This document shows positions 1 to 18,472 of a stretch of 39,991 bases of DNA, piece after piece. The stretch covers positions 1 through 39,991 of IMG/VR virus record IMGVR_UViG_3300042197_001545; one strand, 5' to 3'. The notes under the pieces are model-generated. The model made no database searches and had not been told where the DNA came from. It worked only from the letters and a program-made list of their open reading frames with translations. Source of the DNA: a virus. The position numbers and the translations under genes were made by a program. Within the stretch, counting starts at the first letter, position 1; each line of letters starts with the position of its first letter.

Positions 1-951
1 TCAGATATTCTTTCTGAAATTCAGCAATATGTTATTTACATCGAATCTTTCTTCAGTATGGGGATTACGGACTCAAGTTCAGTCATACTAAGAGAAATTC
101 AGATTGAAAATGAAACGAGCGTAAGTTCGAATCTTCTTTCAGAAAAAGAATACACAATTATTCTCCCTCCAATTGCACAAGATATTTCAATTGGAGGGCA
201 AGTATTTCAAGAATTTGAAGTTGAAGTCACACTTTCTGGAGATTCAATTCCATCTATTGAAATGCAAATTCTCAGTTCAGAGAATACCAGTGAAATTATT
301 CAGTACATTGTATCATTCGCTGAAGCATTTCCAGCATACGGTATTAAATACGGCGATCTTAAAATTCGTGGTCGAGGCGTTTACGATGAAGACTGGACAC
401 TCATACCAATCTCTGCGCTTGCAAACACTCGCTTTGATGAATACTATCAAACATTTACTTCAACTCAACTACCAATTACAGTCATAAGAAGTACAGAGAG
501 TGAAGTAATTACATCAATTGAAATTTCAATATTTAATGTTGAAATGGAAATTGAACTTGATATGTCCGCAACAGTTATAGAACTCCCCGTTTCGTATTTG
601 ATTGAATCATTTAATACGTTTGGCAACACAACAATTGAGTCACAAACGAATAAATATCAAGAAATTCAAGGAACAGTTTCGTCAAGTTCTGGTTCGCAGT
701 ACAAAGATTTGCTTCTATCAGACTTTGCTGGAGTTACTGTAGGTTCAGTTGGAAGTTCAACTTTCCTCACTTCTTTACCATTAGTTACTGGTAATGGAAC
801 TGTTTTCTTGTCGGACTACTTGGTAAGCGATGTTTTTGTTGCAAATAATGAATACTTTACTGTCACAAATCTATTCAGTAACACATCTTTGGTAATTGAT
901 CGACCACCAGCATCCACATTTACGGATGTTGTTGCATATAAGATAGTTTAA
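1..951 (+). CDS. C-terminal part of an unrecognised virion protein (5' truncated)
   Basis: The reading frame is open from base 1, so the gene starts upstream of the window. The ATG at 58 has no ribosome site and is probably an internal Met. The visible 316 residues are beta-rich, Thr/Ser/Ile-rich and acidic, without a recognised catalytic motif, signal peptide or membrane segment. The last ~93 residues (670-948) look like a small beta module that recurs in the giant tail protein and in the tail sheath. The position directly before gp8 and its late promoter suggests a baseplate or tail component, perhaps the end of a large wedge protein, but I do not recognise the family. Confidence is high for a coding region and low for function. 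Confidence 0.75.
   Translation, partial: SDILSEIQQYVIYIESFFSMGITDSSSVILREIQIENETSVSSNLLSEKEYTIILPPIAQDISIGGQVFQEFEVEVTLSGDSIPSIEMQILSSENTSEIIQYIVSFAEAFPAYGIKYGDLKIRGRGVYDEDWTLIPISALANTRFDEYYQTFTSTQLPITVIRSTESEVITSIEISIFNVEMEIELDMSATVIELPVSYLIESFNTFGNTTIESQTNKYQEIQGTVSSSSGSQYKDLLLSDFAGVTVGSVGSSTFLTSLPLVTGNGTVFLSDYLVSDVFVANNEYFTVTNLFSNTSLVIDRPPASTFTDVVAYKIV
670..948 (+). repeat. Beta module, divergent copy (C-terminus of first gene)
   Basis: This segment begins GTV, has a Ser-rich turn, then a 'v...lv...eyftVtnl..nTsLviD' pattern like the modules at 4321, 7675, 8182 and 17045. Similarity is by eye and weak, so this is the least certain of the five copies. Confidence 0.35.
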
Positions 952-963
952 TTAGAATTTTTT

Positions 964-971
964 TATAAATA
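964..971 (+). promoter_or_regulatory. T4-type late promoter TATAAATA
   Basis: This is an exact TATAAATA, the T4 late -10 box recognised by gp55-RNA polymerase. It lies 31 bases before the gp8 start and is followed by an AGGAGA ribosome site. Confidence 0.85.
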
Positions 972-1002
972 AAAGAAACCAAACAGATTTAGGAGAAACT
1001 TC

Positions 1003-2301
1003 ATGGGGTCAATCGTAACAAGCAAATTCAGAATTCACAATGCGGAGCAATTTGTTGAAGCATTTAGTGAGGCTGCCAATTCTATCATTTATTTGACAAT
1101 TGGAAAAAATACTGCATTTCCAAACGATAACAGTCCACCAACTCCAGTCAATTCTACGGCTAATGTCGAGTACACTCCATGGAGAGACATGTACGCGGCT
1201 AAAAGAGTAAACTCTGCGGACGTTACTCATGCCGTTCCAAGATATGATTGGGTATCTGGCACAGTATATGATCAGTATGATGATCAAGACACAAATTTAC
1301 TAGATGACGATTTTTATGTCATGACAGATGATTACAATGTGTACAAATGTTTGTTTAATAATAATGGTGGAGCATCAACAACAAAACCATCAGGAATATC
1401 AAACAATCCATTTCAAACTGCCGACTCTTATATTTGGCAGTACATGTACACAATTTCAACTGCAAACGCACTTAAATTTTTGACAAACGACTATTTTCCT
1501 GTTCAGACTTTGGCTTCTGATGATGGTTCTACACAGTGGGACGTTCAAACCGCAGCCGTTGATGGTTCTATCGATGTAATTCTTGTAACGAATGCTGGAT
1601 CAGGATATTTTAGCGGAAATACTACAGTTACAATTACTGGAGATGGAATAGGAGCAACTGCAAACGTAACAACTTCGTCCGAACCAGGAACAATTACTAG
1701 AATTACAGTTACAAACCCAGGGTCTGGTTATACAACTGCAACAGTTGCAATTTCTGGGGATGGTGCTTCAGCAAATGGAAGAGCAGTTATTTCTCCAAAA
1801 GGCGGTCATGGTGCAGATGCTATCGAAGAACTTGGTGGAAAGTATGTAATGCTTAATGTTCGCTTAGACGGAAATGAGTCAAACACACACAGTACTGCAA
1901 ATGAATTCAGACAAGTCACACTTGTTCGTGATCCTTATGAGTATGGGACATCTACAAGAGCATTATCTTCAGTGTATCGTCAGACATTTAGATATACAAT
2001 AGGTTCTCCATCAGACAATTACACTCTTGATGAAACTGTATCCGATGGAGCAAATACTGCAAAAGTTGTTGAGTGGGACGATGTAAACAATTATCTTTTT
2101 GTTACACTTCCATTAAATCAAACATTTGCAAATGCCGCAACATTAACTGGAGCAAGTTCTAGCGCAACAGGAACTATTGTTGCCATTGCAAATTCAGGTC
2201 TACAGCCATACTCTGGTGAATTGCTCTACGTTGAGAACCGCGTTCCAATCGCAAGAGCAGCCGATCAAATTGAGGATGTAAAACTAATCGTTCAATTCTA
2301 A
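1003..2301 (+). CDS. gp8: Baseplate wedge subunit gp8
   Basis: Structural protein of the contractile-tail baseplate wedge. The N-terminus contains IVTSKFR, as in T4 gp8. The C-terminus keeps the T4 gp8 pattern: EFRQVTLVRDP, then GELLYVENRVPIARAADQIE ending in a short hydrophobic strand. At 432 residues it is about 100 longer than T4 gp8 (334). The extra length is mainly a middle insertion with two GSGY-containing repeats (1585-1788) and a Thr/Ala-rich beta region near residues 345-400. The start has an AGGAGA ribosome site and its own late promoter at 964. The downstream gene begins 12 bases after the stop. Assignment rests on conserved N- and C-terminal motifs. Confidence 0.85.
   Translation: MGSIVTSKFRIHNAEQFVEAFSEAANSIIYLTIGKNTAFPNDNSPPTPVNSTANVEYTPWRDMYAAKRVNSADVTHAVPRYDWVSGTVYDQYDDQDTNLLDDDFYVMTDDYNVYKCLFNNNGGASTTKPSGISNNPFQTADSYIWQYMYTISTANALKFLTNDYFPVQTLASDDGSTQWDVQTAAVDGSIDVILVTNAGSGYFSGNTTVTITGDGIGATANVTTSSEPGTITRITVTNPGSGYTTATVAISGDGASANGRAVISPKGGHGADAIEELGGKYVMLNVRLDGNESNTHSTANEFRQVTLVRDPYEYGTSTRALSSVYRQTFRYTIGSPSDNYTLDETVSDGANTAKVVEWDDVNNYLFVTLPLNQTFANAATLTGASSSATGTIVAIANSGLQPYSGELLYVENRVPIARAADQIEDVKLIVQF
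1585..1788 (+). repeat. Two-copy GSGY beta repeat inside gp8
   Basis: Two ~28-residue repeats, at 1585-1668 and 1708-1788. Both start VTN(A/P)GSGY and continue TV.I(T/S)GDG..A.. The unit is absent from T4 gp8 and looks like a surface-exposed insertion in the wedge protein. Confidence 0.7.
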
Positions 2302-2313
2302 GAGTTTTAATAC

Positions 2314-5300
2314 ATGGCAAATACAAATCCTGGTGGTGTTGATCTCAACATCAGTCCATACTTTGATGATTATGATGAAGATAAAAAGTTTGTAAGAGTT
2401 CTCTACGTTCCTGGACGTGCAGTTCAGGCTAGAGAACTTACACAAGCACAATCACTTCAGCAAGACCAAATTCGAAGATTCGCAGAATACTTCTTTAAAC
2501 CTGGAGCAATTATTGAGGGTTGTGAGCAGTTTGTTGATCTAAGTATGAATTATGTTAAACTTCAAAGCACATATGATGGCTCTGAAGTTGATGTTGATGA
2601 TTTTGAAGATCAGATTGTATTTGGTGCAAATACAGGCTTAAAAGCATTTTGTGGAATTGTGAGTGATGTTGATGGAACTGATCCAAAATCACTTTTTATT
2701 AATTATCTATCTTCTGGATCAATTGTTCTTACAGTAAACAATGCTTCATCAACTCTGACACCAGGAAATACAATTACGTTTTCAACTGGAAATACTGCAA
2801 CCATTGAAGCATCGTACATTGATCCAATTTCTTCTATAAACAAAATTCTTGTTTCAAATGCAATAGGAACACTTACAACAACAACGGCAAACACTGTTTC
2901 AAATACAGGGACCGTTGTTACTGTTCTCGTATCTAACGTTTCTGATAAAAGAGCAAATACAACGTTTGATAATTCAGAAACAATTTTTACCGCAAATGTT
3001 GATACAAGAGCATACGCATTATCAGCAAGTACTAGAGCGACATCAACCATTGTTAATCAAGGTCTTGCTACAGAGAAAACATATACAAAAGGATCTAAAG
3101 TTACCGTTAAAGAAGGGATTCTTTACATAGCAGATCATTTTGTTAAGCATTCAACACAAACACTTATTCTTGACAAGTACACAAATGAACCTTCTTATGT
3201 TGTAGGTATAGTTCCATCAAAATCTTTTGTTGATTACATTGAAGACGGCTCACTTGTTGACAATGCACAAGGTACACCAAACTTTCAAGCACCTGGAGCA
3301 GATCGATTTAAAATTGACACTGTTCTTACAAAAGTTGGTCTTGGAGAAACAACTGACGAAACAGAATTTAATACACTTCTAGAAATTGAAGATGGAGTTA
3401 TAAGAAAAAGAAAATATGCAACCCCAGAAAACAAACTAGAAGAAGTTCTTGCGAAAAGAACATTTGAAGAATCTGGGAACTATGTTATTTCAGATCCTAA
3501 AGTAATTGTTCGTGAGCATCTTACTATTGATTCTAATGGAGGAAGATATTCTGCCGCTGAAGGCGGAAACACACAATTGCTTCTTCTTCAAGTTGATCCA
3601 TTTACTGCATATGTTTCAGGCATTCGAAATGAAACTTTGGTTGATGCTTTAATCCCTATTGACAAAGGATTGACAACTGAATTTGATGAGCAAGTTAGTT
3701 TTGAAACAAACTATCAGCAATATGTAACAGTCAATGAACTTGTTGGATCTTGGGATTTTATGGAAGGCACGAAAGTAGACCTCTATAATACACCACAACA
3801 AACAATTACAAATGACGGATATTCATCTCTCGCTTCTCCAGTAGGAACAAAAGTTGGTGAAGCAAGAGTTCGTGCGATTGAATACAATAGTGGGGTGCAA
3901 GGCACTGCGTCAGCAACATATAGACTATACTTGTATGAAATTGTAATGACTTCTGGAACATTCTCTCAAGTTCGATCAATCTATGATTCAGCTACAGTTA
4001 AAAGATACGCTGATATTGTTCTTGATGCAAATGGAAATGCAAAACTTGAAAGTCCATCTTTCAATACGCTAGTTTTTAAACTCCCATATGAAGCAATTCA
4101 AACTATTCGTGATGATCAGGGAAACATTGAAACTCAATTTAGATTCAAAAAAACATACGGTAGAGATACGACAATTACGTTCAACTCTGGAATTGCTACA
4201 TTTTCTACCGCAACAAATGAACAGTTTGCTGGTTCAATTGGGTTTTTAAATGACACACAAAAGAATGAAAACTTTATGGTCGTTGTTACAAACAGTGGAG
4301 CAAATGCAGAAACAACAACTTTATCTGGAACAGTTACTATTTCTTCTGCGTGTACTGCCGTTGTTGGAACATCAACGTCATTTAACTCCGAATTAAATGT
4401 TGGTGATATCATTAAAGTTAATGGTGAAGAGATTCAAATTGCATCAATCACAAATGATACTAATCTAGTTCTTGCTTCAGCACATAGCGCAGGAGCAGTT
4501 GCAAACACATACACAAAGATTTTGCCTGCTGGAATGCCACTTTCTCTTACTTCAAACGGTGGAGATGGATCTAAAAGAACAGTAGAACTTCTTTCATTAG
4601 GGACAGTTCGTATTGATGTTAAAGAAGACGCAACATTCACTGCCGAAATCATTGCTACGACAGATCGCACAAATGCAAGAGAAAAAAGAAAGACGCTTGT
4701 TTTTCAAGCAACCGCAAACGTCAATCCAAGCACACACCCGAATGGGCTTGCTGGACCTTTTGCATTGGGGTATGGTGATATCTATCGACTTCATGCAGTT
4801 TATCAATCCGCAAATTTTTCAACGCCAGCAACAACAAGCGATACAAATGTAACTTCAAATTATACACTTAACAATGGTCAACGTGATTATGCATATGAAT
4901 ACGGCACAGTTACACCAAAAACTGGAGTAACACCAACTGGAAGACTTCTTGTTGTCTTTGATCATTTCACACATGATACCACACAAGGTGTTGGATATTG
5001 CTCAGTTGATTCATATCCAGTAAATGATACAACAGTCGCAAATACAACAATTACAACCGCTCAAATTCCAACTTTTGTAAGTGAGTCAAGTGGTGAAAGA
5101 TTTAGTCTTCGTGATTGTGTTGACTTTAGACCAATCAAAACTGCAAACACAGCACTGAATCCTATCGATGTTGGAACATATCAAATCCCTACGGGTGGTC
5201 TTCGATTCCCTAAACCAAATTCATCATTTATTGCCGATCTAATTTATTACAAAGGCAGAGTTTCAAGAATCTATGTAAACAGCCGTGGTTCTTTTGGAAT

Positions 5301-8300
5301 CAATGAAGGTATTCCTACAACTTCAGAAAATTTAAGATCAAAGTTTTCTTCAAAAGTTCCAGAAACACTTGAACTTGCCGAGATCACAATTCCACCATAT
5401 CCTTCTTTACCAGAAGATGTAATTATCAAGATTCTAAAGAATCGTAGATTCACAATGAAAGATATTGGGAAACTTAATGATCGTGTAGAAAAATTAGAAT
5501 ATTTCACTGCACTCAGCTATCTAGAAAAAGAATCTACTAATAAAATAATTACTGATGCAGACGGAATAGAGAGATTTAAAAACGGAATTCTTGTTGATCC
5601 ATTTACTGGGTATTCCGTTGCTCGACCAGACAGTGATGTTGGTTATGCGGCATCAATTGATGAAACAAACAAATATGTTACCGCACAACAGTCTCATGCA
5701 GAGCATCGATTTGAGTATATTAGAGGAGGTGTCACATCATCAACACAATGGAACACTGGTGGAAAAATTACTCTTCCATATACTAATGAAGCGCCTGCTA
5801 ATTTAAGACAAGTTTTTGCATCTCGACAGTTAAGACTTACAGAAGAGTTGAATTTCTTTTTCACAGGGAAAATGAACATCACTCCTCCTGTCGATACATT
5901 CCCAGAAATAACATATGAGAAAAGTAAAGAAATTGTTTATGATGATACTGGTGATGCAGACAACTGGAAAGCATTACAACAAGCATGGAACTCTGAAGTT
6001 TCTCCACTTACAAAACGATTTATTGGTGAAGAAGAAAGAGGAAATCTTACAGGAAATGAATTCCAAAGTGGGACTGCTGGTGGTCAAAGAATCTTTAGTC
6101 GAAATAGAGAAATCATTCAACAGACGGCTCTAACAATCATTCAAGGTTCACAATCAACAACAGACGCACCAAAATCATCTGTTTCAGGAAATAGACTTGT
6201 AAGCGCAACGGCTGCGCTCAAGATGAGACAAAGAGATTTTGTCATTTCAGTAAGAGGAATGAAAAGAAATACAAGAGTGTATGCATTCTTTAATGGAGAA
6301 AGTGTAACTGCAAATTGTAGACAAATTACTCTTGCTTCTGGAATTACGCCAGAAATTCTTGAAAATGAAAATATGAATGAGAATGATTTTCTACTTCAAG
6401 ACCCAGATTCGAGTGGGACAAATGATTTTACAGTCATTAAAGATGGCAGCACAGATGAATTCTATACTGATGACAAAGGGCAAATCAATCTTATATTCAG
6501 AGTGCCATCAGGAAGATTTTATACAGGTCAAAGAGAATTTAAACTTACAGATAGTTCTACAAACAATGCTGATTTAGAACTTACTTCAGCAAGACAATTT
6601 ATTTTCTCAACTGGTGTAAGTGCAACAGAGAGTGCAATTACAATTAATTCTCGACCATATGATATATCTTTCGTTGGATCAAATACAGTTCGACCACCAC
6701 AATATGAAGTTGTTCGAACAGTAACAGAAGAAGTTCGAAGAGAAGCCATACCTCCTCCACCACGTGCTCCAGATCGGGGATGGGGAGATGACCCAGTATC
6801 ACAAAGTTTCAGTGTTGATCAAAATACTTACCCATACGGATTCTATGTAACAAAGATCGATCTGTTCTTTAAAACAAAATCAAAATCCAAAAATGGGGTT
6901 AACGTATTTTTGCGTGAAATATCTAACGGGTACCCTTCATCATCCATTATTGGACTAAATGAAGAAGCCTTTGTAGAAGGTGATAACATTATTGCTTCAG
7001 ATGATAACAATGGAGCATTTTTACCAACCACATTTACATTTAAAAACCCAATTTATCTTGCTAGTGGGAATGAATACTGTTTTGTGGTTCAACCCGTAAA
7101 CAACGATCCAGATATAGCACTCTGGGTTGCTGAACTTGGGGCAACAGACCTAGTTGATCCAACCCAGAGCAAACGAATTGAATCAAGTGTTATGACAACC
7201 AGTGGTGTTGTCTTTACATCATCGAACAATCGTACATGGTCAGCAAGACAAAATCTTGATGTTAAGTTTCAAATGCACATTGCAAATTTTGGAACTACAA
7301 GCAAAGAAGCATATTTTAGAAATGTGAACATTACAACTCCATTCTACTATGACAGATTTTTGGTAAATTTTCAAGAACAACAGATTAGTGGAACAAGCAT
7401 CAACTATGAAGTTAAAACAATGAACGATGCATTTGTTGTTGATGAATCTTTTACACAAGTCAAAAATAGAAGAGAGTTTGTTCCTTCAGTTCGTAAGTAT
7501 TATGCAAATACTGCACAAGAGTCTGCTCAATCTCCTCCTGTAAAATCGGTGCAGATTAAAGCAACACTCTCAACAGTTAATCCGTATATTACTCCCTACA
7601 TCGATGCCGCACAACCTCTCAGTGCAATGTATAGTCGAAATGTAATCAACAATTCAGTAAGTACAGATGTTGCCGGCACAGTTACATTTACACCAGCAAA
7701 TAACATTGTTGTTGGTTTAAGTACAAATTTTGCATCTGATCTGAATGAAGGTGAGTACGTTCTTTTAGGTTCTGAATATAGAAAAATCAAAGAAATTGCA
7801 AACGCAGTTTATATGACTGTTGAAAATAATTTGACAACTTCAAATGCCGTAAATCAAACAATTACAATTAAAAATGAAGAGCATCCTGTTGGACCATACA
7901 CATCACAATCACGATACATTACAAGAATTGTCACGCTCAATGATGGATTTGAAGCATCTGATCTTGCTGTTTATTTAAAAGTTAATCGTCCACCAGGGAC
8001 AAACATTCGTGTGTATGGTAAGTTTTTAAATGAAGTTGACACTGATCCATTTGATGATAAGTTCTACACACTTCTTTCGCTTGAAGGAAATGAATCTTTC
8101 TCTCTAAATGACAATAATTATAGCGAAGAGAAGTATGTTATTCCTGCCGCGCAAAAGACTGGTGGTGAAATTCTTTTAAATGGAACAATTCAAGTCTTCA
8201 GTGCAAACAATGTTGTTCTTGGGACTGCAACAAGATTTATTGAAGAATTAAAAATTGGAAACATAATTGGAATTGGTACTGCAAGAACAGAAAAAGTTGT

Positions 8301-8526
8301 TTCCACAATTGCAAACAATACATTTTTAACTGTAGACACTGCTTCTGGATCTCCAGCATCAGGACAAACTTTCTTTAAGATTTTAAATAATGAGTTTACT
8401 TATGTGACTCCAGACAGTCGAACCTTTAGTGGATTTAAACAGTTTGCAATAAAAATCGTATTCTTGTCTTCTTCACCACACCTTTCACCAAAAGTGAAAG
8501 AATTAAGAGCGATAGCACTAGCATGA
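2314..8526 (+). CDS. Giant tail/baseplate structural protein, DUF4815 family
   Basis: A 2070-residue virion protein, the largest in the window. The N-terminus (NISPYFDDYDEDKKFVRVLY, then PGRAVQARELTQAQ) and the central stretch around residues 930-1120 (FSLRDCVDFRP; RFTMKDIGKLNDRVEKLEYF; GIERFKNGILVDPF) are typical of DUF4815 phage structural proteins, which are usually annotated as tail-fibre or baseplate associated in marine T4-like phages. Three copies of a ~65-residue beta module occur near residues 670-737, 1788-1853 and 1957-2024. A Pro-rich, Arg-rich linker (PPPPRAPDRG) lies near residue 1485. No catalytic motif is seen. It follows gp8 by 12 bases without its own late promoter, so the two are probably cotranscribed. 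The family's exact position in the virion is not known to me. Confidence 0.8.
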   Translation: MANTNPGGVDLNISPYFDDYDEDKKFVRVLYVPGRAVQARELTQAQSLQQDQIRRFAEYFFKPGAIIEGCEQFVDLSMNYVKLQSTYDGSEVDVDDFEDQIVFGANTGLKAFCGIVSDVDGTDPKSLFINYLSSGSIVLTVNNASSTLTPGNTITFSTGNTATIEASYIDPISSINKILVSNAIGTLTTTTANTVSNTGTVVTVLVSNVSDKRANTTFDNSETIFTANVDTRAYALSASTRATSTIVNQGLATEKTYTKGSKVTVKEGILYIADHFVKHSTQTLILDKYTNEPSYVVGIVPSKSFVDYIEDGSLVDNAQGTPNFQAPGADRFKIDTVLTKVGLGETTDETEFNTLLEIEDGVIRKRKYATPENKLEEVLAKRTFEESGNYVISDPKVIVREHLTIDSNGGRYSAAEGGNTQLLLLQVDPFTAYVSGIRNETLVDALIPIDKGLTTEFDEQVSFETNYQQYVTVNELVGSWDFMEGTKVDLYNTPQQTITNDGYSSLASPVGTKVGEARVRAIEYNSGVQGTASATYRLYLYEIVMTSGTFSQVRSIYDSATVKRYADIVLDANGNAKLESPSFNTLVFKLPYEAIQTIRDDQGNIETQFRFKKTYGRDTTITFNSGIATFSTATNEQFAGSIGFLNDTQKNENFMVVVTNSGANAETTTLSGTVTISSACTAVVGTSTSFNSELNVGDIIKVNGEEIQIASITNDTNLVLASAHSAGAVANTYTKILPAGMPLSLTSNGGDGSKRTVELLSLGTVRIDVKEDATFTAEIIATTDRTNAREKRKTLVFQATANVNPSTHPNGLAGPFALGYGDIYRLHAVYQSANFSTPATTSDTNVTSNYTLNNGQRDYAYEYGTVTPKTGVTPTGRLLVVFDHFTHDTTQGVGYCSVDSYPVNDTTVANTTITTAQIPTFVSESSGERFSLRDCVDFRPIKTANTALNPIDVGTYQIPTGGLRFPKPNSSFIADLIYYKGRVSRIYVNSRGSFGINEGIPTTSENLRSKFSSKVPETLELAEITIPPYPSLPEDVIIKILKNRRFTMKDIGKLNDRVEKLEYFTALSYLEKESTNKIITDADGIERFKNGILVDPFTGYSVARPDSDVGYAASIDETNKYVTAQQSHAEHRFEYIRGGVTSSTQWNTGGKITLPYTNEAPANLRQVFASRQLRLTEELNFFFTGKMNITPPVDTFPEITYEKSKEIVYDDTGDADNWKALQQAWNSEVSPLTKRFIGEEERGNLTGNEFQSGTAGGQRIFSRNREIIQQTALTIIQGSQSTTDAPKSSVSGNRLVSATAALKMRQRDFVISVRGMKRNTRVYAFFNGESVTANCRQITLASGITPEILENENMNENDFLLQDPDSSGTNDFTVIKDGSTDEFYTDDKGQINLIFRVPSGRFYTGQREFKLTDSSTNNADLELTSARQFIFSTGVSATESAITINSRPYDISFVGSNTVRPPQYEVVRTVTEEVRREAIPPPPRAPDRGWGDDPVSQSFSVDQNTYPYGFYVTKIDLFFKTKSKSKNGVNVFLREISNGYPSSSIIGLNEEAFVEGDNIIASDDNNGAFLPTTFTFKNPIYLASGNEYCFVVQPVNNDPDIALWVAELGATDLVDPTQSKRIESSVMTTSGVVFTSSNNRTWSARQNLDVKFQMHIANFGTTSKEAYFRNVNITTPFYYDRFLVNFQEQQISGTSINYEVKTMNDAFVVDESFTQVKNRREFVPSVRKYYANTAQESAQSPPVKSVQIKATLSTVNPYITPYIDAAQPLSAMYSRNVINNSVSTDVAGTVTFTPANNIVVGLSTNFASDLNEGEYVLLGSEYRKIKEIANAVYMTVENNLTTSNAVNQTITIKNEEHPVGPYTSQSRYITRIVTLNDGFEASDLAVYLKVNRPPGTNIRVYGKFLNEVDTDPFDDKFYTLLSLEGNESFSLNDNNYSEEKYVIPAAQKTGGEILLNGTIQVFSANNVVLGTATRFIEELKIGNIIGIGTARTEKVVSTIANNTFLTVDTASGSPASGQTFFKILNNEFTYVTPDSRTFSGFKQFAIKIVFLSSSPHLSPKVKELRAIALA
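4321..4524 (+). repeat. Beta module copy 1 (giant tail protein)
   Basis: Encodes GTV...vvGTsTsFnseLnvGDiIkvngeeiqIASiTNdTnLvLaSAH. It is the closest of the tail-protein copies to the one inserted in the tail sheath (17045-17242). Confidence 0.7.
7675..7872 (+). repeat. Beta module copy 2 (giant tail protein)
   Basis: Encodes GTVtFtpanniVvGlsTnFasdLneGeyvllgseyrkIkeIan..ymTV, the same order of conserved positions as the 4321 and 8182 copies. Confidence 0.65.
8182..8385 (+). repeat. Beta module copy 3 (giant tail protein)
   Basis: Encodes GTIqvfsannvVlGTaTrFieeLkiGniIgig...kVvsIanNTfLTVdtasg, ending FFKIL, compared with YTKIL in copy 1. Confidence 0.65.
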
Positions 8527-8771
8527 TGGCGCATAAATTAAAAGTTGAAGATCCAATTTTAGGATTTACTGAGAGAGATTCAGACTCTAAAGCCATATTA
8601 AATACAGACATGAACTCTCTTCTTAAATATAAAATTCAGAAGAGAAAATTTTCTGAAATAAATAAAAGTACTACAGAAATTTCAAACATTAAGACTGAAG
8701 TTGAAGAAATTAAAAATGATCTTTCTGAGATAAAAAAACTTCTGTTTGAAATCACGCAGAAATCTCAATGA
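8523..8771 (+). CDS. Small acidic/basic coiled-coil protein, function unknown
   Basis: An 82-residue protein whose start overlaps the preceding stop in an ATGA junction, so it is probably translationally coupled to the giant tail protein. A second ATG follows at 8526. The second half (residues ~45-80) has hydrophobic I/V/L residues at heptad spacing with Glu/Lys between them, which predicts a coiled coil. No signal peptide or cysteine is present. The position suggests a small tail-assembly partner or oligomerisation protein. I do not recognise a family. Confidence 0.6.
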   Translation: MMAHKLKVEDPILGFTERDSDSKAILNTDMNSLLKYKIQKRKFSEINKSTTEISNIKTEVEEIKNDLSEIKKLLFEITQKSQ

Positions 8772-8774
8772 GAT

Positions 8775-8782
8775 TATAAATA
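8775..8782 (+). promoter_or_regulatory. T4-type late promoter TATAAATA
   Basis: Exact late -10 box, 30 bases before the 8812 start codon. Confidence 0.8.
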
Positions 8783-8811
8783 GTTAAAATCAATTATAAG
8801 TAGGAAAACTC

Positions 8812-9726
8812 ATGCCCATAAATCAAGTATTACTTTCAAATACCTTCAATGAATTTAGAGAGACATTTAACAATGCCGCTAATACAGTTAATTCATTGCA
8901 AGCTGGTACTGGGAACTCAAACGTTAATTTTCTTACAGTTTCTGGTGGTGTTTCTTCAAATCTAATTCCTTCTGCAAATGTCACATATGATCTTGGAACT
9001 TCAAGTTTACGTTGGAACGATTTATATTTAAGTGGTACAACAATTTTTCTTGGTGCAGGTGAGATTAAAGTTGAAAACGATGAAGTTCGTTTTCTTGTTA
9101 ATGGAACACAAGTTTTAACTGCAAACGTAAGTGGTGAATCTGTTACAGATGTCATTACTGCAAACAATATCACGATCAATGAAGACCTTTTAGTTTCTGG
9201 AAATCTTACTGTTAATGGCACAGAAACAATATTAAATACGCAAACTCTTGTCGTTGAAGACAAAAATATTGTTATTGCAAACACTGCATCTCCAACAGAT
9301 ATTCTTGCAGATGGTGGTGGTATTACACTCAAGGGCAACACAGATAAGACACTTAATTGGGTTGATGCCACAGATTCTTGGACATCTTCAGAAAATTTCA
9401 ATCTATTAACTGGTAAAACATACAAGATAAATGCAACAGATGTTTTAACTGCAACAGGACTTGGTACAGGTATTTTATCTTCAAGTCTTACATCAGTTGG
9501 TACAATTGGGGCAGGTATTTGGCAAGGAACAATTGTTGGTTCTACTTATGGTGGAACTGGTGTAAACAATGGTGCAAACACACTTACAATGCAGGGTAAC
9601 GTAACATTTTCAGGGCTAAATAGTGTAACACTCGTTTCTACTGGAGCAACAAACGTGACTCTTCCAACAAGTGGGTCAATTGCAAGTACAGGTAAAGCAA
9701 TTGCAATGGCAATTGTATTTGGTTAA
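8812..9726 (+). CDS. Putative tail fibre / virion appendage protein
   Basis: A 304-residue protein with an AGGAAA ribosome site and its own late promoter. Residues ~57-85 carry a motif common in phage fibres and appendages (YDLGTSSLRWNDLYLSGTTI). It is followed by repeated beta segments (ITINEDLLVSGNLTVNGTET, then LVVEDKNIVIAN) and a Gly/Thr-rich C-terminus (GTIVGSTYGGTGVNNGANTL). This pattern fits a trimeric beta-helical fibre shaft. There is no signal peptide and no catalytic residues. T4-like phages of aquatic bacteria encode many such fibres in this region. The receptor and exact location are unknown. Confidence 0.65.
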   Translation: MPINQVLLSNTFNEFRETFNNAANTVNSLQAGTGNSNVNFLTVSGGVSSNLIPSANVTYDLGTSSLRWNDLYLSGTTIFLGAGEIKVENDEVRFLVNGTQVLTANVSGESVTDVITANNITINEDLLVSGNLTVNGTETILNTQTLVVEDKNIVIANTASPTDILADGGGITLKGNTDKTLNWVDATDSWTSSENFNLLTGKTYKINATDVLTATGLGTGILSSSLTSVGTIGAGIWQGTIVGSTYGGTGVNNGANTLTMQGNVTFSGLNSVTLVSTGATNVTLPTSGSIASTGKAIAMAIVFG

Positions 9727-9771: not shown

Positions 9772-10152
9772 ATGGCAGACTTAAACATAGTCAACGTAGC
9801 AGACATTAAAGGCAGAACTCTTTCTGCAAATTTGACAAATAGCACGGCAAACGTAGTTGTAAATACTTTTGGACAAAGCAAAGTGTTTAAAGTAAACAAT
9901 GTATTGTTTGCAAACAGATCAGCTAATACTTGTAGCATATATCTTAATTTTGCAGATTATTCAACAAATGGAAATACTTTTCCTTTAATTTTTAATCTTG
10001 ACGTACCAACAAAATCTACAGTAGAAGCCCTTTCTAAACCTCTTTATCTTGAAGAGGGTGATCGACTTATGAGTTTTCTACTCTCTCCTGCTGGAGGTAG
10101 CATAGATAGTGGCAATGTAGTCATTACAGTAAGTTATGAGGAGCTTTCATAA
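9772..10152 (+). CDS. Small beta-rich virion protein, function unknown
   Basis: A 126-residue protein with an AAGGAA ribosome site and its own late promoter. It is predicted all-beta with many Asn, Thr and Val residues. The tail end (KPLYLEEGDRLMSFLLSPAG, then VVITVSYEE) resembles small structural proteins that are widespread near fibre genes in tailed phages. The gene overlaps the next by one base (TAATG), so the two are likely made together. It could be a fibre-attachment or decoration protein. No established function is recognised. Confidence 0.55.
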   Translation: MADLNIVNVADIKGRTLSANLTNSTANVVVNTFGQSKVFKVNNVLFANRSANTCSIYLNFADYSTNGNTFPLIFNLDVPTKSTVEALSKPLYLEEGDRLMSFLLSPAGGSIDSGNVVITVSYEELS

Positions 10153-11240
10153 TGTCAATTATAAGTCAAAATTGTTCTAGTCTTTGGAACATTCGAGAAA
10201 TCTATAGACAAACTTCTGGAGCATGTTACTCTTCTGGCGGTTACAACATTGAACTATTGTTAATTGGCGGAGGTGGTCCTGGTGCTGGGTGGGGCCAAAT
10301 GGGCGGCGGCGGTGGCGCGGGCGGACTTGTTTACACAAACAATTTATTTATTCGATCTGGATGCACTTATCCAATTACAATTGGTGCTGGAGGCGCCCAT
10401 AATGCCCAGAATACCAATAATAATGGAGCAAATTCTTGTTTTTGTTATGTGACAGGTGGCCCTCCATCTGGAGTAAACATTATTGCTCTTGGTGGTGGAG
10501 GTGCAGGTGATGGTTTAGGTTTACCACAAGTTTTTTATGGAGCAAATCAAGGAGGATCTGGAGGTGGTGAGGGTCGCCTTGTAACAAATTGTACTGGCCC
10601 AAGTCCTTTAGTCCCATGTGTCGTTATTAATCCATGCTCTTGCCCAAGACCAGCAGTTGGTCTTCAACCAAACCCAGTATACTGGTCTTCAATTAGTGGA
10701 ATTGTTGGGTGTGGTCGAAATGGTGGTTGTGGATTCCCATGCAATACCGCAAGTCCACCCAACAATGCGTTTAATTTTTGGGGTGGTGGTGGAGGTGGTG
10801 CAAGTGGTGTTGGTCAAAATGGTGGACCACCATCTGGCGCACAACCATATGGTGCCACAGGAAATGGTGGTGCTGGTTTGACGTTCTCTATTTCTGGCGG
10901 ACCAGTAGGTTATGCTGGAGGTGGGGCTGCGGGACAGGAACAATTATTTAACCCAACACAACTTTGTGGACTAGCATGTTGTGGCGGAGGCGGAACTGGT
11001 ACAGGACCACCAGGTGGTAACCCAGGAAATTTCGCAGGAGAGGCAGGCACCGCAAATCGTGGTGGAGGGGGGGCGGGCGGGCAGGCCTATGGTGGCGGCC
11101 GCCCAGGCGGTTCTGGTGTTGCAGTTATTCGATACAATGGTGTTCAGAGAGCAGTAGGAGGGAATTCTATAACGACTTGCTTAACTCCAATAATTCAAAC
11201 AAGTCATTTGTTTACTGGTTCTGGTTGTTTTATTGCTTAA
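10152..11240 (+). CDS. Glycine- and cysteine-rich putative tail adhesin
   Basis: A 362-residue protein made largely of Gly-rich segments (GGGGPGAGWGQMGGGGGAGG; NFWGGGGGGASGVGQNGG; GGGGAGGQAYGGGRPGGSG). Such repeats are known in phage adhesins, for example the polyglycine helices of T-even gp38. The opening YNIELLLIGGGGPGAG matches the 'Gly-rich domain' type seen in many phage fibres. It also contains 17 cysteines, including CFC, PCSCP, CGRNGGCGFPC and CGLACC, which is remarkable for a phage fibre. Local base composition is strongly G-rich compared with its AT-rich neighbours. A GAGGAG ribosome site lies in the end of the preceding gene. Binding to the cell surface is inferred from composition and context. 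Confidence 0.6.
   Translation: MSIISQNCSSLWNIREIYRQTSGACYSSGGYNIELLLIGGGGPGAGWGQMGGGGGAGGLVYTNNLFIRSGCTYPITIGAGGAHNAQNTNNNGANSCFCYVTGGPPSGVNIIALGGGGAGDGLGLPQVFYGANQGGSGGGEGRLVTNCTGPSPLVPCVVINPCSCPRPAVGLQPNPVYWSSISGIVGCGRNGGCGFPCNTASPPNNAFNFWGGGGGGASGVGQNGGPPSGAQPYGATGNGGAGLTFSISGGPVGYAGGGAAGQEQLFNPTQLCGLACCGGGGTGTGPPGGNPGNFAGEAGTANRGGGGAGGQAYGGGRPGGSGVAVIRYNGVQRAVGGNSITTCLTPIIQTSHLFTGSGCFIA
11067..11081 (+). other. G-quadruplex-type motif in the coding strand
   Basis: Seven G, then C, three G, C, three G. This satisfies four runs of three G with one-base loops, in an otherwise AT-rich genome. It may only reflect Gly codons. Confidence 0.5.
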
Positions 11241-11672: not shown

Positions 11673-11691
11673 AAAAGAAGGAGACAATTAA

Positions 11692-12081: not shown

Positions 12082-12086
12082 AATAC

Positions 12087-12113
12087 AAACCCAGATTCTT
12101 TCTGGGTTTTTTC
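12087..12113 (+). terminator. Rho-independent terminator after the tail-periphery block
   Basis: A 9-bp perfect stem (AAACCCAGA / TCTGGGTTT) with a 5-base loop, followed by a T run. It starts 6 bases after the stop at 12081. Confidence 0.9.
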
Positions 12114-12126
12114 TTTTCTTCTTTAT

Positions 12127-12134
12127 TATAAATA
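12127..12134 (+). promoter_or_regulatory. T4-type late promoter TATAAATA
   Basis: Exact box just past the terminator. It restarts late transcription for gp13 to gp17, with the start codon 24 bases downstream. Confidence 0.85.
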
Positions 12135-12157
12135 GAGAATAAAAGAGGAGATGCTGA

Positions 12158-12907: not shown

Positions 12908-12910
12908 TGA

Positions 12911-13756
12911 ATGGCACGCAATCGCTACTTTAATCAATACAGTACTGCTTCAGAACAAAATCTCAATGAGAGTTTGATCATTGAAGCAATGAAGATATAT
13001 GGCATACAAGCCTATTATCTTCCACGAACTCATGTGAATCTTGATCGACTGTACGGAGAAGACGCATCTGTTTACTATGACGATGCAATTGAAATTGAAA
13101 TGTATATTAAAACATTTGATGGATTTGGTGGACAACTTGATTTTATCTCAAAGTTTGGTCTTCAAGTTGATGAACAAATTACATTTTCAGTTGCACAAAA
13201 ACGATTTGGACAAGCACTCAAGCCTTGTCTATTGACTGAGTATTCATACAATCTTTTAACTGAAGAGGGAGATGAACTTCTTTTTCAAAATGAAGAATTG
13301 TCTGCGTTCGACAATCGTGCAATTGCAGACTATGACTACTCTGGAATCTATCGTCCAAGAGAAGGTGATCTCATCTGGTTGCCAATGGTACAATCAATGT
13401 ACGAAATTAAATTCTGTGAAGACAATGAGTATTTCTTTCAACTTGGAAAAGTCTATACCTACGAACTTCGATGTGATCGCTTTGAATATCAGTCTGAGAA
13501 AATTGATACAGATGTTACAGAAATTGATACGATTGAAGACACATACAGTCTTGCAACAAATGTTCTTGATGAACTTCTACTTGAAGATGATGACAAATTG
13601 CTTCTTGAAGATGAAAACACAGTGGTTCTTGAAGGCGATGTTATTCTTGCGAGAGCAAATACAGCAGACAATGACTTTATTCGATCAGAGATTGACGATG
13701 ACGATGTGGTTGATTTCTCTGAAAGCAATCCGTTCGCACTTACAAGGGTTTACTAA
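12911..13756 (+). CDS. gp14: Neck protein gp14
   Basis: Neck protein that works with gp13 to complete the head for tail attachment. At 281 residues it is near the T4 size (256). The start ARNRYFNQYSTASEQNLNES and the pattern of KIYGIQAYYLPRTHVNLDRL, then YGEDA, are typical of T4-like gp14. The middle contains the conserved RPREGDLIWLPM and FCEDNEYFFQLGKVYTYELR strands. Residues ~225-250 are a Leu/Glu/Asp-rich low-complexity tract (LLLEDDDKLLLEDENTVVLE). The gene sits between gp13 and gp15 in the usual order. Confidence 0.9.
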   Translation: MARNRYFNQYSTASEQNLNESLIIEAMKIYGIQAYYLPRTHVNLDRLYGEDASVYYDDAIEIEMYIKTFDGFGGQLDFISKFGLQVDEQITFSVAQKRFGQALKPCLLTEYSYNLLTEEGDELLFQNEELSAFDNRAIADYDYSGIYRPREGDLIWLPMVQSMYEIKFCEDNEYFFQLGKVYTYELRCDRFEYQSEKIDTDVTEIDTIEDTYSLATNVLDELLLEDDDKLLLEDENTVVLEGDVILARANTADNDFIRSEIDDDDVVDFSESNPFALTRVY

Positions 13757-13758
13757 TT

Positions 13759-14502
13759 ATGATGTTCGGTCACGATTATTATCACGGTACACTTAGACGC
13801 TACATCATTATGTTCGGCAATCTCTTCAATGAGATTCAAGTGGACCGCTACGACACAGATGGAGTAACTTCCATTCAGTCTGTTCTCGTTCCAATTGAAT
13901 ATGGTCCAAAGCAAAAAGCAATTCGTAGAGTAACCGCAGATCCAGCAATTACAAGAGAACAATTTTCAACTCAATTGCCAAGACTTGGATTTGAAATGTC
14001 TTCGCTTGCTTATTCGCCAGGGAGAAAATTAAACTCAGCACATCGATTCACAAGAGGTGTGAATACTGGAGGAACAGACTTTCAGTTTACCTATGCTCCT
14101 GTACCTTATGATATTAATTTCTCACTCTATGCGTTAGTAAAAAGTGCGGAAGATGGCACACAAATTGCAGAGCAAATCATACCATTCTTTACGCCAGACT
14201 GGACAGTTACAATGAGATTGATTCCTGAACTTGGAATTAATCTTGACATTCCAATTGAAATGACAAGTGTTTCTTTTGAAGATAATTATGAGGGCGACTT
14301 TGACACACGCAGATTTGTCACATGGCAATTTGATTTTACAGTCAAAGGTTATCTCTTTGGACCAATGCAAAAATACAAGTACATCGATACTGCAAATATC
14401 TCTTCAAGTACAATCGAAGGCTTTACAGTTTCTTTCCAAGACTTTGCTGGCAACTCTGCATTTCAAGTGACTGAAACAATTACGGAAACGCAAACCCCAT
14501 GA
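13759..14502 (+). CDS. gp15: Tail sheath stabiliser and completion protein gp15
   Basis: Caps the top of the tail tube and sheath so that the tail can join the head. The sequence begins MMFGHDYYHGTLRRYIIMFG and continues LFNEIQVDRYD, VLVPIEYGPKQKAIRR and PRLGFEMSSLAYSPGRKLNS, all conserved in T4-like gp15. Length is 247 against 272 in T4. A double ATG (13759 or 13762) makes the exact start uncertain by one residue. The end overlaps gp16 by four bases (ATGA). Confidence 0.92.
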   Translation: MMFGHDYYHGTLRRYIIMFGNLFNEIQVDRYDTDGVTSIQSVLVPIEYGPKQKAIRRVTADPAITREQFSTQLPRLGFEMSSLAYSPGRKLNSAHRFTRGVNTGGTDFQFTYAPVPYDINFSLYALVKSAEDGTQIAEQIIPFFTPDWTVTMRLIPELGINLDIPIEMTSVSFEDNYEGDFDTRRFVTWQFDFTVKGYLFGPMQKYKYIDTANISSSTIEGFTVSFQDFAGNSAFQVTETITETQTP

Positions 14503-14900
14503 AAAAGACCGTGAACGAAAAACTCAATGACATTCTTGACATTGAACCAACTTCAGTTACTGAGGTTGTGCCAAAACCTGTTGCAACTGTACCTGCTGAG
14601 GTTACAGACGATGACTATGAGTACGCACGAAACAATCTCAAAGGTCTCATTGAAAATGGCAAAGAAGTCATGCAAAACATTATGTTCGTTGCAAAAGAAA
14701 GCGAATCTCCAAGATCGTATGAAGTTGTTGGTCAACTGATTAAGACACTCGCAGAGACAAACAAAGACTTACTTGAACTTGCAAAGAAGTCAAAAGAACT
14801 TCGATCAGATAAAGAAGAAAAGTCTGGAGACACAAACATCACAAATGCACTTTTCGTAGGAAGCACGACGGAACTTCAAAAATTGTTGACTAAAAAGTAA
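14499..14900 (+). CDS. gp16: Small terminase subunit gp16
   Basis: DNA-recognition subunit of the packaging motor, which stimulates the gp17 ATPase. The 133-residue sequence is mostly helical, with YEYARNNLKGLIENGKEVMQ and YEVVGQLIKTLAETNKDLLE forming the central coiled-coil region found in T4-like gp16. An acidic, Pro-containing N-terminal arm precedes it. T4 gp16 is 164 residues. It overlaps gp15 by four bases and is followed by gp17 two bases after its stop. Confidence 0.9.
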   Translation: MKKTVNEKLNDILDIEPTSVTEVVPKPVATVPAEVTDDDYEYARNNLKGLIENGKEVMQNIMFVAKESESPRSYEVVGQLIKTLAETNKDLLELAKKSKELRSDKEEKSGDTNITNALFVGSTTELQKLLTKK

Positions 14901-14902
14901 TC

Positions 14903-16531
14903 ATGCGAACAAAAAAGTATCTTGGAAACGCTCAATTAAAAGCGGCTGGAGTTGCACTTCAGTTTACAAAAGAACAAGTAGAAGAATATTTAAAGTGTTC
15001 TTCAGATCCAATTTACTTCATTGAAACATACTGCAAAATCGTGACACTTGATCATGGTCTACAACCTTTCAAGTTATACGAATGTCAGAAGAACAAAGTC
15101 AATGTAATACACACCAATCGCAAAGTCATACTGATGGAGGGGCGTCAGCAGGGCAAGACTACCACATCTGCGGCGTATATTCTTTGGTATACACTGTTCC
15201 AAGGGAGCAAGACAGTTGCAATTCTTGCAAACAAAGCGTCAGCCGCAAGAGAAGTTCTTTATCGTTATCAGTTGATGTACGAGAATCTACCTCTGTGGTT
15301 GCAACAGGGTGTGACAGTTTGGAACAAAGGTGACATTGAATTAGAAAACGGTTCAATCGTATTTACTTCTGCGACAAGTCGTGCAGGTATTCGTGGTAAG
15401 TCAGTCAATCTATTATATGTTGACGAGACATCAATTATACCAAACAATCTTGCAGAAGAATTCTTTACGTCAGTCTATCCTACAATTTCTGCTGGTGAAA
15501 CAACAAAAATTCTACTCTCTTCTACGCCTCTTGGGTACAATCATTTCTGGAAGTTTTGGAATGATGCAGAAAACGGACGCAATGGGTTCGTGCCTCTGTT
15601 CATACCTTATTGGGAAATTCCTGGGCGTGACGCAAAATGGGCTGAAGGGCAACGCAGACTTCTTGGAGAAATTAAATTCAATCAAGAGGTTCTTTGTAAA
15701 TTTTTGGGTTCATCAGCTACACTCATTGCAGCCGATGTGATTGGAAACATGTCGCCGAAAGCGCCAATTTACAGCAAAGATGGACTAGACATCTACGAAA
15801 AAGTGCAAAAAGATCATTCTTATGTTCTTGTCGCAGACACCGCAAAAGGTGTAGGTGGTGACTACTCAGCATTCAGCATCATTGACACTACTCAGATGCC
15901 ATATTTGCTTGTTGGAAAATATAGAGACAATCAAATTAGTCCATTGCTTTATCCATCAGTCATTTATAAAATTGCAAAAGAATACAATAATGCATATGTG
16001 CTGATTGAAATCAATAGTTCAGAGCAAGTTGCAGAGATTCTTTACAGTGAATACGAGTACGAAAATATCGTATTTGTAAATCGTATGACAAATGGACAGA
16101 TTGTTTCTGGTGGATTTGGTGGTGGTAAAACTCAGCTTGGTGTAATTACAGATAAGAAAATTAAACGAATTGGATGTTCAAATCTCAAGTCTTTAGTTGA
16201 GGAGCAAAAACTTCTTGTTCACGATGCAGACATCATTTCAGAAATCTCAACATTCATTGAAAAAAGAGGGTCGTATAGCGCAGATGAAGGTTATCACGAT
16301 GATCTTGTCATGACTCTGGTTCTCTTTTCTTGGTTATCTACAAATCCATACTTTAAAGAACTCACAAATATAAATATACGAAAAGAATTGTATGAAAAGC
16401 GCATTGAATTGATTGAAAACGAAATTACTCCTTTTGGCATTATAGATGATGGACAAGAAGAGAATACTTTTGTGGATGCATCGGGTCAAGTCTGGACACA
16501 GGATGAAAAATACAAAAGCGATTTTTTATAA
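14903..16531 (+). CDS. gp17: Large terminase subunit gp17
   Basis: ATPase and nuclease that drives DNA into the prohead and cuts it at headful. Walker A is GRQQGKTT (residues 80-87), Walker B is LLYVDETS (D174, E175), and the coupling motif is SST (206-208). The C-terminal RNase H-like nuclease has VADTAKGVGGDYSAF with D312, then LIEIN with E369 and GYHDDLVM with D466/D467, matching the acidic triad of T4 gp17. Length is 542 against 610 in T4. The late promoter for the sheath gene overlaps the stop codon. Confidence 0.95.
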   Translation: MRTKKYLGNAQLKAAGVALQFTKEQVEEYLKCSSDPIYFIETYCKIVTLDHGLQPFKLYECQKNKVNVIHTNRKVILMEGRQQGKTTTSAAYILWYTLFQGSKTVAILANKASAAREVLYRYQLMYENLPLWLQQGVTVWNKGDIELENGSIVFTSATSRAGIRGKSVNLLYVDETSIIPNNLAEEFFTSVYPTISAGETTKILLSSTPLGYNHFWKFWNDAENGRNGFVPLFIPYWEIPGRDAKWAEGQRRLLGEIKFNQEVLCKFLGSSATLIAADVIGNMSPKAPIYSKDGLDIYEKVQKDHSYVLVADTAKGVGGDYSAFSIIDTTQMPYLLVGKYRDNQISPLLYPSVIYKIAKEYNNAYVLIEINSSEQVAEILYSEYEYENIVFVNRMTNGQIVSGGFGGGKTQLGVITDKKIKRIGCSNLKSLVEEQKLLVHDADIISEISTFIEKRGSYSADEGYHDDLVMTLVLFSWLSTNPYFKELTNINIRKELYEKRIELIENEITPFGIIDDGQEENTFVDASGQVWTQDEKYKSDFL

Positions 16532-16534
16532 ATA
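16527..16534 (+). promoter_or_regulatory. T4-type late promoter TATAAATA
   Basis: Exact box that overlaps the gp17 stop codon. The gp18 start lies 49 bases past it, behind an AAGGAGA ribosome site. Confidence 0.8.
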
Positions 16535-16582
16535 AATTGAAATTCTAGTAACAAACATCATTATAAAAACAAGGAGAAATCA

Positions 16583-18472
16583 ATGGCTATTAGTCTAATC
16601 TCACCAGGAATCAAAGTAACAGAACAAGACCTTGTTGCATCTCAGCAAGCAATTACTTCTACTACTGGTGCTTTTTCTGGTCAATTTCGTTGGGGACCAA
16701 TTGAAGATCCAGTTTTAGTAACTGGTGAAAGCGATCTTGTCGAAAAATTTGGAGCCCCAGATACAAACACTGCGGTTGACTTTCTTTCGGCTGCAAACTT
16801 TCTAAATTATTCTGCACCATTATTTGTCATTCGTGTAGCGAACACTGCACTCAATTCAACTGCGGAAGCAACAACAGGTTCTGGAACTCCTGGTACAGGT
16901 CTACTGATCAAGAATGATCTAGTCTACGAAGGCACATCTTCATTTAACGTTGGTCCATGGATGGCAAAATTTGCAGGCGCACTTGGAAACTCAATTCGTG
17001 TTTCTACATGCCCAAGCTCATCTGCATTTCAATCAACACTTACAGGAACATGGACTGTAGCCGTAGGAAATACAACAGTCACATCAGCAAATGGAGCCGC
17101 AAACACAGAAGTTCAAGTTGGCGATCTTCTTGTTCTTGATGGACGCACAATCAAAGTTGCTTCAGTTACAGATGCAAATACAATTGTTCTTTCTTCAGCA
17201 CATGTAACTGGTGCTACGGCTGCTACCGCAGTACGCCGTTGGGAATTTTTCCCTGAATTCAATGCTGCCCCAGGAACATCTACAGATGGAGAAGCCAAAG
17301 GCGCAGTTGGAGATGAAATGCACATTGTCGTTGTAGATCGTCTTGGAACAATTACAGGTGTTGTTGGGTCAGTTCTTGAAAAATTTGAACTTGTTTCAAA
17401 AGGTTCGGATGCAAGAGGCGAAAATGGTGGAACAAACTACTATCGTAATCTAATTAATGATCGTTCACAATACATTCGTTGGACTGCACACGATTCTGCT
17501 GGCACAAATTGGGGAACATCACTTTTAAACACTACATACACCGCAGTAAATTTACCTAAACCATATAATCTTGCTGGTGGGGCTGATGGTAGCGCACTTT
17601 CAGATGGTGATCGTACAACTGGATATCTATTGTTTGCAAACAAAAATGATATTCCTACATCTCTAATTATTTCTGGTCAAGCAACATCAACAACTGTAAA
17701 TCGTATAATCAATGACGTTGTTGAAATAAGAAAAGATTCAATCGTTGTTGCTTCCCCTCCAAGAACAGCAGTTGTCAACAATGCTGGTTCTGAAGTCACT
17801 TCAATCAATGCTTTTGCAAACGCTGTTACAAGATCAACATATGCGTTTCTAGATTCTGGTTGGAAGTATCAGTACGACAAGTACAATGATACATACGTTT
17901 ATGTTCCTCTTAATGCTGACATGGCTGGACTAATGGCAAGAAACGATTTCAATCGTGACCCATGGATTTCTCCAGCAGGATTCATCAATGGACAAATTTC
18001 AAATCTTGTTCGTCTTGCATTTAATCCAAATCAAGCAGACCGTGATACACTTTACAAGAATTCTGTTAACCCAGTTATCACACAGCCTGGAAAAGGAACA
18101 GTTCTTTTTGGCGACAAGACATTTACAACAAAAAACACATCTACAAATCGTATAAATGTTCGCAGACTCTTCATTGAACTTCAAAGAACAATTTCTGATG
18201 CCGCCGACAATGTTCTCTTTGAAAGAAACGATGCAACAACAAGAGAAAACTTTGTAAATCTAATTACTCCATATCTTCGTACTGTTGAAGCAAGAAGAGG
18301 AATTAGTGCATTCCGAGTTGTTTGTGACGGAACAAACAATCCTGAAACTGTTGTCAATGCAAATGAGTTTGTTTGCGATATCTTTGTACAACCAGTTCGC
18401 TCTGTCAACTTTATTCAACTCAACTTTGTATCGGTTTCTGGAACTGCAACATTTACTGAAATTGCCGGCTAA
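16583..18472 (+). CDS. gp18: Contractile tail sheath protein gp18
   Basis: Forms the contractile outer tail. N-terminal SLISPGIKVTEQDL and GAFSGQFRWGPIEDPVLV, and C-terminal PYLRTVEARRGISAFRVVCD with NNPETVVNANEFVCDIFVQP, are conserved in T4-like sheath proteins. Length is 629 (T4 659). Residues ~155-220 hold an inserted beta module closely similar to modules in the giant tail protein at 2314-8526. That region corresponds to the surface-exposed, variable part of sheath proteins. An AAGGAGA ribosome site and its own late promoter fit high expression. Confidence 0.95.
   Translation: MAISLISPGIKVTEQDLVASQQAITSTTGAFSGQFRWGPIEDPVLVTGESDLVEKFGAPDTNTAVDFLSAANFLNYSAPLFVIRVANTALNSTAEATTGSGTPGTGLLIKNDLVYEGTSSFNVGPWMAKFAGALGNSIRVSTCPSSSAFQSTLTGTWTVAVGNTTVTSANGAANTEVQVGDLLVLDGRTIKVASVTDANTIVLSSAHVTGATAATAVRRWEFFPEFNAAPGTSTDGEAKGAVGDEMHIVVVDRLGTITGVVGSVLEKFELVSKGSDARGENGGTNYYRNLINDRSQYIRWTAHDSAGTNWGTSLLNTTYTAVNLPKPYNLAGGADGSALSDGDRTTGYLLFANKNDIPTSLIISGQATSTTVNRIINDVVEIRKDSIVVASPPRTAVVNNAGSEVTSINAFANAVTRSTYAFLDSGWKYQYDKYNDTYVYVPLNADMAGLMARNDFNRDPWISPAGFINGQISNLVRLAFNPNQADRDTLYKNSVNPVITQPGKGTVLFGDKTFTTKNTSTNRINVRRLFIELQRTISDAADNVLFERNDATTRENFVNLITPYLRTVEARRGISAFRVVCDGTNNPETVVNANEFVCDIFVQPVRSVNFIQLNFVSVSGTATFTEIAG
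17045..17242 (+). repeat. Beta module inserted in the tail sheath
   Basis: Encodes GTWtvavgnTtvtsang...VGDlLvldgrtIkVASvTDanTivLsSAHvtGAtAaTavrrW. The I-x-(V/I)AS-(V/I)-T-(D/N) core and following SAH..GA.A.T match the copy at 4321-4524. Confidence 0.7.

Follow-up and report, generated by a model that had tools for sequence, protein, structure and literature searches.

A small, predicted all-beta domain shared by the baseplate wedge, DUF4815 and tail sheath proteins of a contractile-tail phage

Background

The Ig-like domains of phages are found in several classes of virion protein (Fraser et al. 2006, as reviewed in PMC9022992). In the contractile tail of T4, domain I of the sheath protein gp18 is a protruding six-stranded barrel with a helix, which binds the baseplate and holds the retracted fibres, and the fragment comprising domains I and II is solvent-exposed (PMC3004832). 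A barrel of the distal tail protein (Dit) of T5, a weak fold neighbour of the domain described here (Z 6.1), has been proposed, but only proposed, to bind carbohydrate (PMC10038345). As for tail fibres, their N-terminal end in general attaches the fibre to the tail (PMC10684548, PMC13243795).

The window analysed here, that is, the whole stretch of 39,991 bases from an IMG/VR virus record, belongs by its gene content to a T4-like contractile-tail phage. It encodes gp8 (phrog_438), a DUF4815 protein of 2070 residues, a sheath (phrog_23), two tube proteins and a T4-type portal. Five segments in the virion proteins of this phage are homologous and represent a single domain, about 64 residues long; their relationships, predicted fold, inheritance and possible function are considered below.

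Genome context and carrier proteins

The module copies and their carrier genes are located as follows:

1..951, + strand: 3' part of a gp7-like baseplate wedge gene, an ORF open at its 5' end and cut by the left contig end
751..942, + strand: module copy F, at the very C-terminal end of the gp7-like wedge protein (i-E 2e-17 with the converged profile)
2314..8526, + strand: giant DUF4815 baseplate protein with three module copies (PF16075 at 2.1e-42; phrog_358)
4327..4518, + strand: module copy G1, in the giant protein (i-E 6e-21; AlphaFold2 pLDDT 97.4)
7675..7857, + strand: module copy G2, in the giant protein (i-E 3e-18)
8182..8379, + strand: module copy G3, in the giant protein (i-E 9e-17)
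16583..18472, + strand: tail sheath (gp18 family) with one module in domain II (PF04984, PF17482 and PF22671; phrog_23)
17045..17236, + strand: module copy S, in the sheath (i-E 7e-14; pLDDT about 95 in the sheath model)

A match at 7.4e-26 links the giant protein to the DUF4815 protein in the baseplate entries of phi812, and the sheath model superposes on the sheath of the Klebsiella phage KP1-variant with a Z of 41.8. The first ORF comprises 316 residues and runs off the left contig end. Relatives of full length show a match to the baseplate wedge subunit family phrog_17744 and a weak one to T4-type gp7; the protein found at this place in related loci is mostly about 840-1960 residues long and is usually followed by gp8. 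Judged from these relatives, the first gene is the truncated 3' end of a longer, gp7-like wedge gene. As the carriers are thus a gp7-like wedge protein, a phi812-type DUF4815 protein and a sheath, all five copies of the window reside in proteins of the contractile tail.

Several other features were observed in the vicinity of these genes. Between the sheath and the portal lie two adjacent tail-tube genes (18500-19078 and 19088-19708), whose products are 35% identical (1.9e-38) and both belong to phrog_45; the order sheath, first tube, second tube, portal was seen again in 33 fetched loci, and the clade therefore seems to retain two tube proteins. A short predicted coiled-coil protein, a virion structural protein of phrog_473 (8523-8771), overlaps the end of the giant gene, and a further neighbour among the tail genes (10152-11240) encodes a protein rich in glycine, with long runs of GGGG, that may be part of a fibre or an adhesin. 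In phiM12 (locus L010), three hypothetical genes annotated on the minus strand (6492-7964, 8526-9659 and 10173-11078) lie wholly within the DUF4815 gene and are probably spurious.

Five homologous copies of one domain

When the comparison was confined to the window and G1 was used as query, S was found at 1.1e-9, G3 at 1.4e-6 and G2 at 4e-5, but F only at an i-E of 0.0044; four copies were thus secure on the evidence of the window alone, and the fifth needed its relatives. The sheath, giant and first-gene proteins were used to fetch loci, to which annotated phages were added, and the ORFs of these loci served for iteration of an HMM that was seeded with G1, G2, G3 and S only, F being left out. 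At convergence the family numbered 345 copies, spread over 231 ORFs of the loci fetched: 198 were in DUF4815 proteins, 65 in sheaths, four in the neck protein gp13 and two in gp8, and the remaining 76 came from relatives of the first gene and from other ORFs, almost all of them in the gp7 position. Four first-gene relatives had already been found in the first round, when the profile was still without any such member. In addition, the module ended no more than 10 residues from the C-terminus in 66 of the 76 gp7-position copies.

The initial annotation had reported four clear copies of the module and a weaker one at 670-948. The fifth copy is in fact delimited by positions 751-942, with 670-750 lying outside the module, and within these limits it is now as secure as the others. 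The common core proposed at that time, VGD-I...I.(V/I)AS(V/I)T(D/N)..T.VL, describes G1 and S well, whereas G2, G3 and F deviate from it.

The composition of the module is biased (T 16%, S 11%, V 11%, H 0.7%, W 0.1%), and such a bias can inflate scores, so that a chance or compositional likeness of Thr/Ser/Val-rich beta segments without common ancestry had to be weighed. Against the converged profile, the best decoys reached an i-E of only 0.63 (reversed ORFs) and 0.13 (shuffled ORFs, which preserve composition), compared with 7e-14 to 6e-21 for the copies of the window. Profile-profile comparison of every pair of copy classes gave probabilities of 97.9-99.6% over 62-64 columns, values that are somewhat favoured by the column frame which the class alignments share; 93 other 66-residue segments from the same giant and sheath alignments did not exceed 18% (over 12 columns; median 0.44%). 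With an independent alignment, the sheath modules matched the giant-protein modules at 99.3%, and column-shuffled decoys remained below 1%. The same strand register also appears in independently built models (see below). We consider a chance likeness extremely improbable, and the explanation by merely similar beta-rich stretches was dropped, as shuffles and segments of the same proteins both fail to reproduce the similarity. The proposal that the five segments share one module is thereby borne out.

Predicted fold and residue conservation

AlphaFold2 models were built from disjoint alignments, one of 47 sheaths for the whole sheath and one of 63 giant-protein modules for G1 alone. The pLDDT was 86 for the sheath overall, about 95 within its module and 97.4 for G1. 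In module numbering, the strands of the G1 model comprise residues 2-5, 9-15, 28-31, 34-41, 46-53, 57-60 and 62-64, and those of the S model residues 2-5, 9-15, 28-31, 34-43, 46-53, 57-60 and 62-65, with a helical turn at 19-22 in both. S and G1, the two copies that were folded, are thus predicted to share one fold with identical strand order and register, in line with the common fold that the initial annotation anticipated. The predicted module is small and all-beta, with seven short strands and a single helical turn.

Conservation within the module falls on glycines, core hydrophobic residues and an end residue that is invariably K or R, and no stretch of the module is conserved strongly enough to retrieve loci by itself. 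In the sheath, no other main part is as poorly conserved as the module. Within the giant protein, G1 ranks among the three most variable stretches; the conservation of G2 and G3 is average.

Distribution in other phages and databases

Many tailed phages carry the module in their tail fibres, sheath, baseplate or neck. Among solved proteins, the sequence profile matched residues 7-71 of the F2-pyocin side fibre (25ve) at 1.2e-5 and residues 4-69 of a distal tail protein gp20 at 1.7e-5. It also matched several tail-fibre families of PHROG (phrog_1980, 2712 and 28473), the first of which was found by 15 of 25 members, at best with 7.7e-11. Further carriers are the ENT39118 tail fibre, with the module at the N-terminus, the Rtp tail fibre (about residues 12-70, i-E 0.0017), a structural protein of Pelagibacter phage HTVC115P and a 1413-residue ORF of S-TIM5. 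Ochrobactrum phage OC, a cultured relative, bears the module in its sheath as well as in its DUF4815 protein. No profile match to the module was obtained in the T4 tail proteins or in the lambda tail-gene region examined, which does not speak against its presence there.

Fold comparison gave a similar picture. In BFVD, the matches with E below 1e-3 included tail fibres, a baseplate wedge subunit and a tail tip protein, with the S-TIM5 sheath lower down. The fold neighbours in the PDB were domains of tailspikes, tail tubes and tail tips and the T5 Dit; unrelated barrels, for example the N-terminal domain of F1-ATPase, were among them too, and nearly all of these neighbours had a middling Z. A tblastn search of the phage collection with the consensus and the modules of two relatives returned no matches, though the copy of the window did match; low-complexity masking is the probable cause, and the counts from this search were left out of account.

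No curated Pfam or NCBIfam model matched the module above its cut-off, the best values (E 0.0014-0.0015) being to unrelated families, and neither the domain by name nor the DUF4815 architecture was found described in open-licence papers. With a profile for this family, for which the libraries searched offer no curated model, parts of many hypothetical virion proteins could be annotated, and the family could serve as a marker for domain shuffling among virion genes.

Inheritance and movement of the copies

Identity between a copy of the window and the copies that occupy its position in other phages is 57-72%, whereas between copies of this genome it is only 17-38%. Four classes, S, F, G2 and G3, form nearly pure clades in the tree, with local supports of 0.94-0.99; the S class groups best with G1, with a weak support of 23% in 60 resamplings with FastTree. 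The three module positions of the giant protein are constant among close relatives, and G1 is kept even in distant DUF4815 proteins. Nearly all of the sheaths examined have sequence at the module site, and where the HMM detected no module there, profile comparison with the giant-protein modules gave 94-96% for metagenomic groups and 68.5%, over 28 columns, for isolates. As the copies cluster by protein position and not by genome, those of the window are old and were inherited in place, and a recent movement within this genome is not supported.

The suggestion that the module moved between unrelated virion proteins stands nonetheless on an evolutionary scale, given the many types of phage protein that carry it and the insertions found in gp13 and in a giant protein. 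Compared with the gp13 of the window, that of locus L071 contains a clean module insertion between aligned flanks that are 35% and 81% identical. A gp13 with an inserted module was observed in L071 (4915-5880), L063 (4915-5880) and L077 (1975-2931); the L071 and L077 copies are not close in the tree, so that two insertions may be represented. Likewise, one module more than in the relatives L123 and L096 is present in the giant protein of L131, where the flanks are 73% and 66% identical to L123. This fourth module, at residue 990 of the DUF4815 protein of L131 and L134 (9986-16423 in both), is nearest to G1 copies in the tree and is possibly an internal duplication. On these comparisons of sequence, the family has spread repeatedly between virion proteins over evolution, and the domain is an old building block, put to use again and again, rather than a recent jumper within this genome.

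The sheath module and T4 gp18 domain I

The sheath was compared with T4 gp18 by a profile alignment with the module removed, which replaced a plain MAFFT alignment that had misplaced the module region. Removal of the module columns raised the score of the match from 629.8 to 637.5, and the sheath stretch AKFAGALGNSIRV then aligned on ALYPGELGDKIEI of T4 gp18. Independently of the module, domain I of T4 gp18 (residues 98-188) is mostly gap against the sheath of the window, at about residues 86-154 of the latter. This gap precedes the YPGxLG motif and module S follows it; the alignment thus does not place module S and domain I at the same point of domain II.

The module resembles T4 domain I as a beta-barrel with a helix carried by domain II of the sheath, outward-facing in T4 (PMC3004832), but differs from it in its insertion point (about T4 residue 248, where gp18 itself carries no module, compared with 98-188) and is without a sequence match to it. 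A sheath that lacks domain I but bears another barrel on domain II provides a basis for proposing a similar role, and comparison of such sheaths makes the role of an outward sheath domain testable. The exposed position claimed for the module by the initial annotation is supported only indirectly, by the insertion of copy S in a domain equivalent to gp18 domain II (PMC3004832) and by the high variability of S and G1.

A contact or adaptor barrel as the proposed function

With our confidence evenly divided, we rank first the reading that the module is a barrel for protein-protein contact, or an adaptor, within the virion. This ranking follows from its occurrence in tail and baseplate proteins and at fibre N-termini, together with the lack of a conserved surface resembling a sugar site. 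A self-contained accessory barrel of this kind, tolerated at loops and termini, would provide its carrier with an additional surface for contacts. In the F2-pyocin side fibre, ENT39118 and Rtp, the module lies at the N-terminal end of the fibre, and by analogy with general fibre architecture a module placed there may anchor its carrier to the tail. The copies in the wedge, giant and sheath proteins would brace or dock fibres and neighbouring parts of the baseplate, and the sheath copy might fill the role of the missing gp18 domain I. A bolder version, in which the wedge, DUF4815, sheath and fibre copies form a common plug or adaptor of the tail by recognising each other or a partner in common, with one interchangeable domain coupling fibres, baseplate and sheath, and with the sheath copy replacing domain I where fibres are held retracted or contraction begins, is speculative and in our judgement quite improbable.

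The variation seen in S and G1 is also what a module free of contact constraint, or one adapting to hosts, would show. Two other readings were weighed. The module could be a tolerated spacer, a fast-folding, inert domain that spreads by harmless insertion into loops or at termini and has no specific partner. The clean loop insertions, the restriction of conservation to core and turn positions and the variation of module positions between phages in gp7-like, gp8 and gp13 proteins all agree with such a spacer, but in DUF4815 proteins and sheaths it has long been kept at fixed places, and this, like the invariant K or R at its end, argues for some constraint; we rank this explanation second and hold it to be doubtful. 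Ranked third, and in our opinion unlikely, is the binding of host glycans raised by the initial annotation; in this reading exposed barrels, each binding weakly, would aid adsorption through their many copies per virion. The exposed part of the sheath in which the module is inserted (PMC3004832), the fast variation of S and G1 and the carbohydrate binding proposed for OB and Ig-like decorations of siphophage tails (PMC10038345, PMC9022992) would suit this function. We found no positive evidence for it: with tryptophan at 0.1% (and histidine at 0.7%) and only core positions conserved, no shared sugar site is visible, nor is any surface cluster of aromatic or polar residues conserved across the family. 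Moreover, the variability of G2 and G3 does not exceed that of the remaining giant protein, and the fibre copies lie away from the receptor-binding end. The contact or adaptor reading remains the one that we prefer.

Comparison with known systems

Relatives by sequence profile are the N-terminal domains of side fibres, as in F2-pyocin (25ve) and phrog_1980, 2712 and 28473. In these fibres the domain begins the protein; in the baseplate and sheath proteins of the window it lies internally, at the C-terminus or as an insertion, and one protein may hold as many as three copies. The OB-type decoration of the T5 distal tail protein pb9 (Dit; Z 6.1) and the insert of lambda gpJ (Z 6.8) are similar small barrels that decorate a tail protein, with an rmsd of 2.2-2.3 over 62-63 residues. 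These Z values are middling, too low to tell relatives from common arrangements, and the profile search of solved structures returned no significant sequence match to either protein. The sharing of fragments among phage fibres, spikes and baseplates (PMC10684548) appears to be the same general phenomenon; in the available part of that survey the module was not found named, and the paper does not mention the tail sheath.

A parallel in behaviour is offered by the phage Ig-like domains, which are likewise small, promiscuous beta domains inserted in or appended to several classes of virion protein (PMC9022992). The module differs from them in sequence, as none of the Ig-like Pfam families Big_1, Big_2, I-set and FN3 was matched by 25 members up to E 0.1. 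No Ig-like domain was among the PDB fold neighbours listed, which does not speak against an Ig fold. The module adds to the promiscuous phage domains a small, so far unnamed member, by sequence not Ig-like, that is common to fibres, baseplate, sheath and neck.
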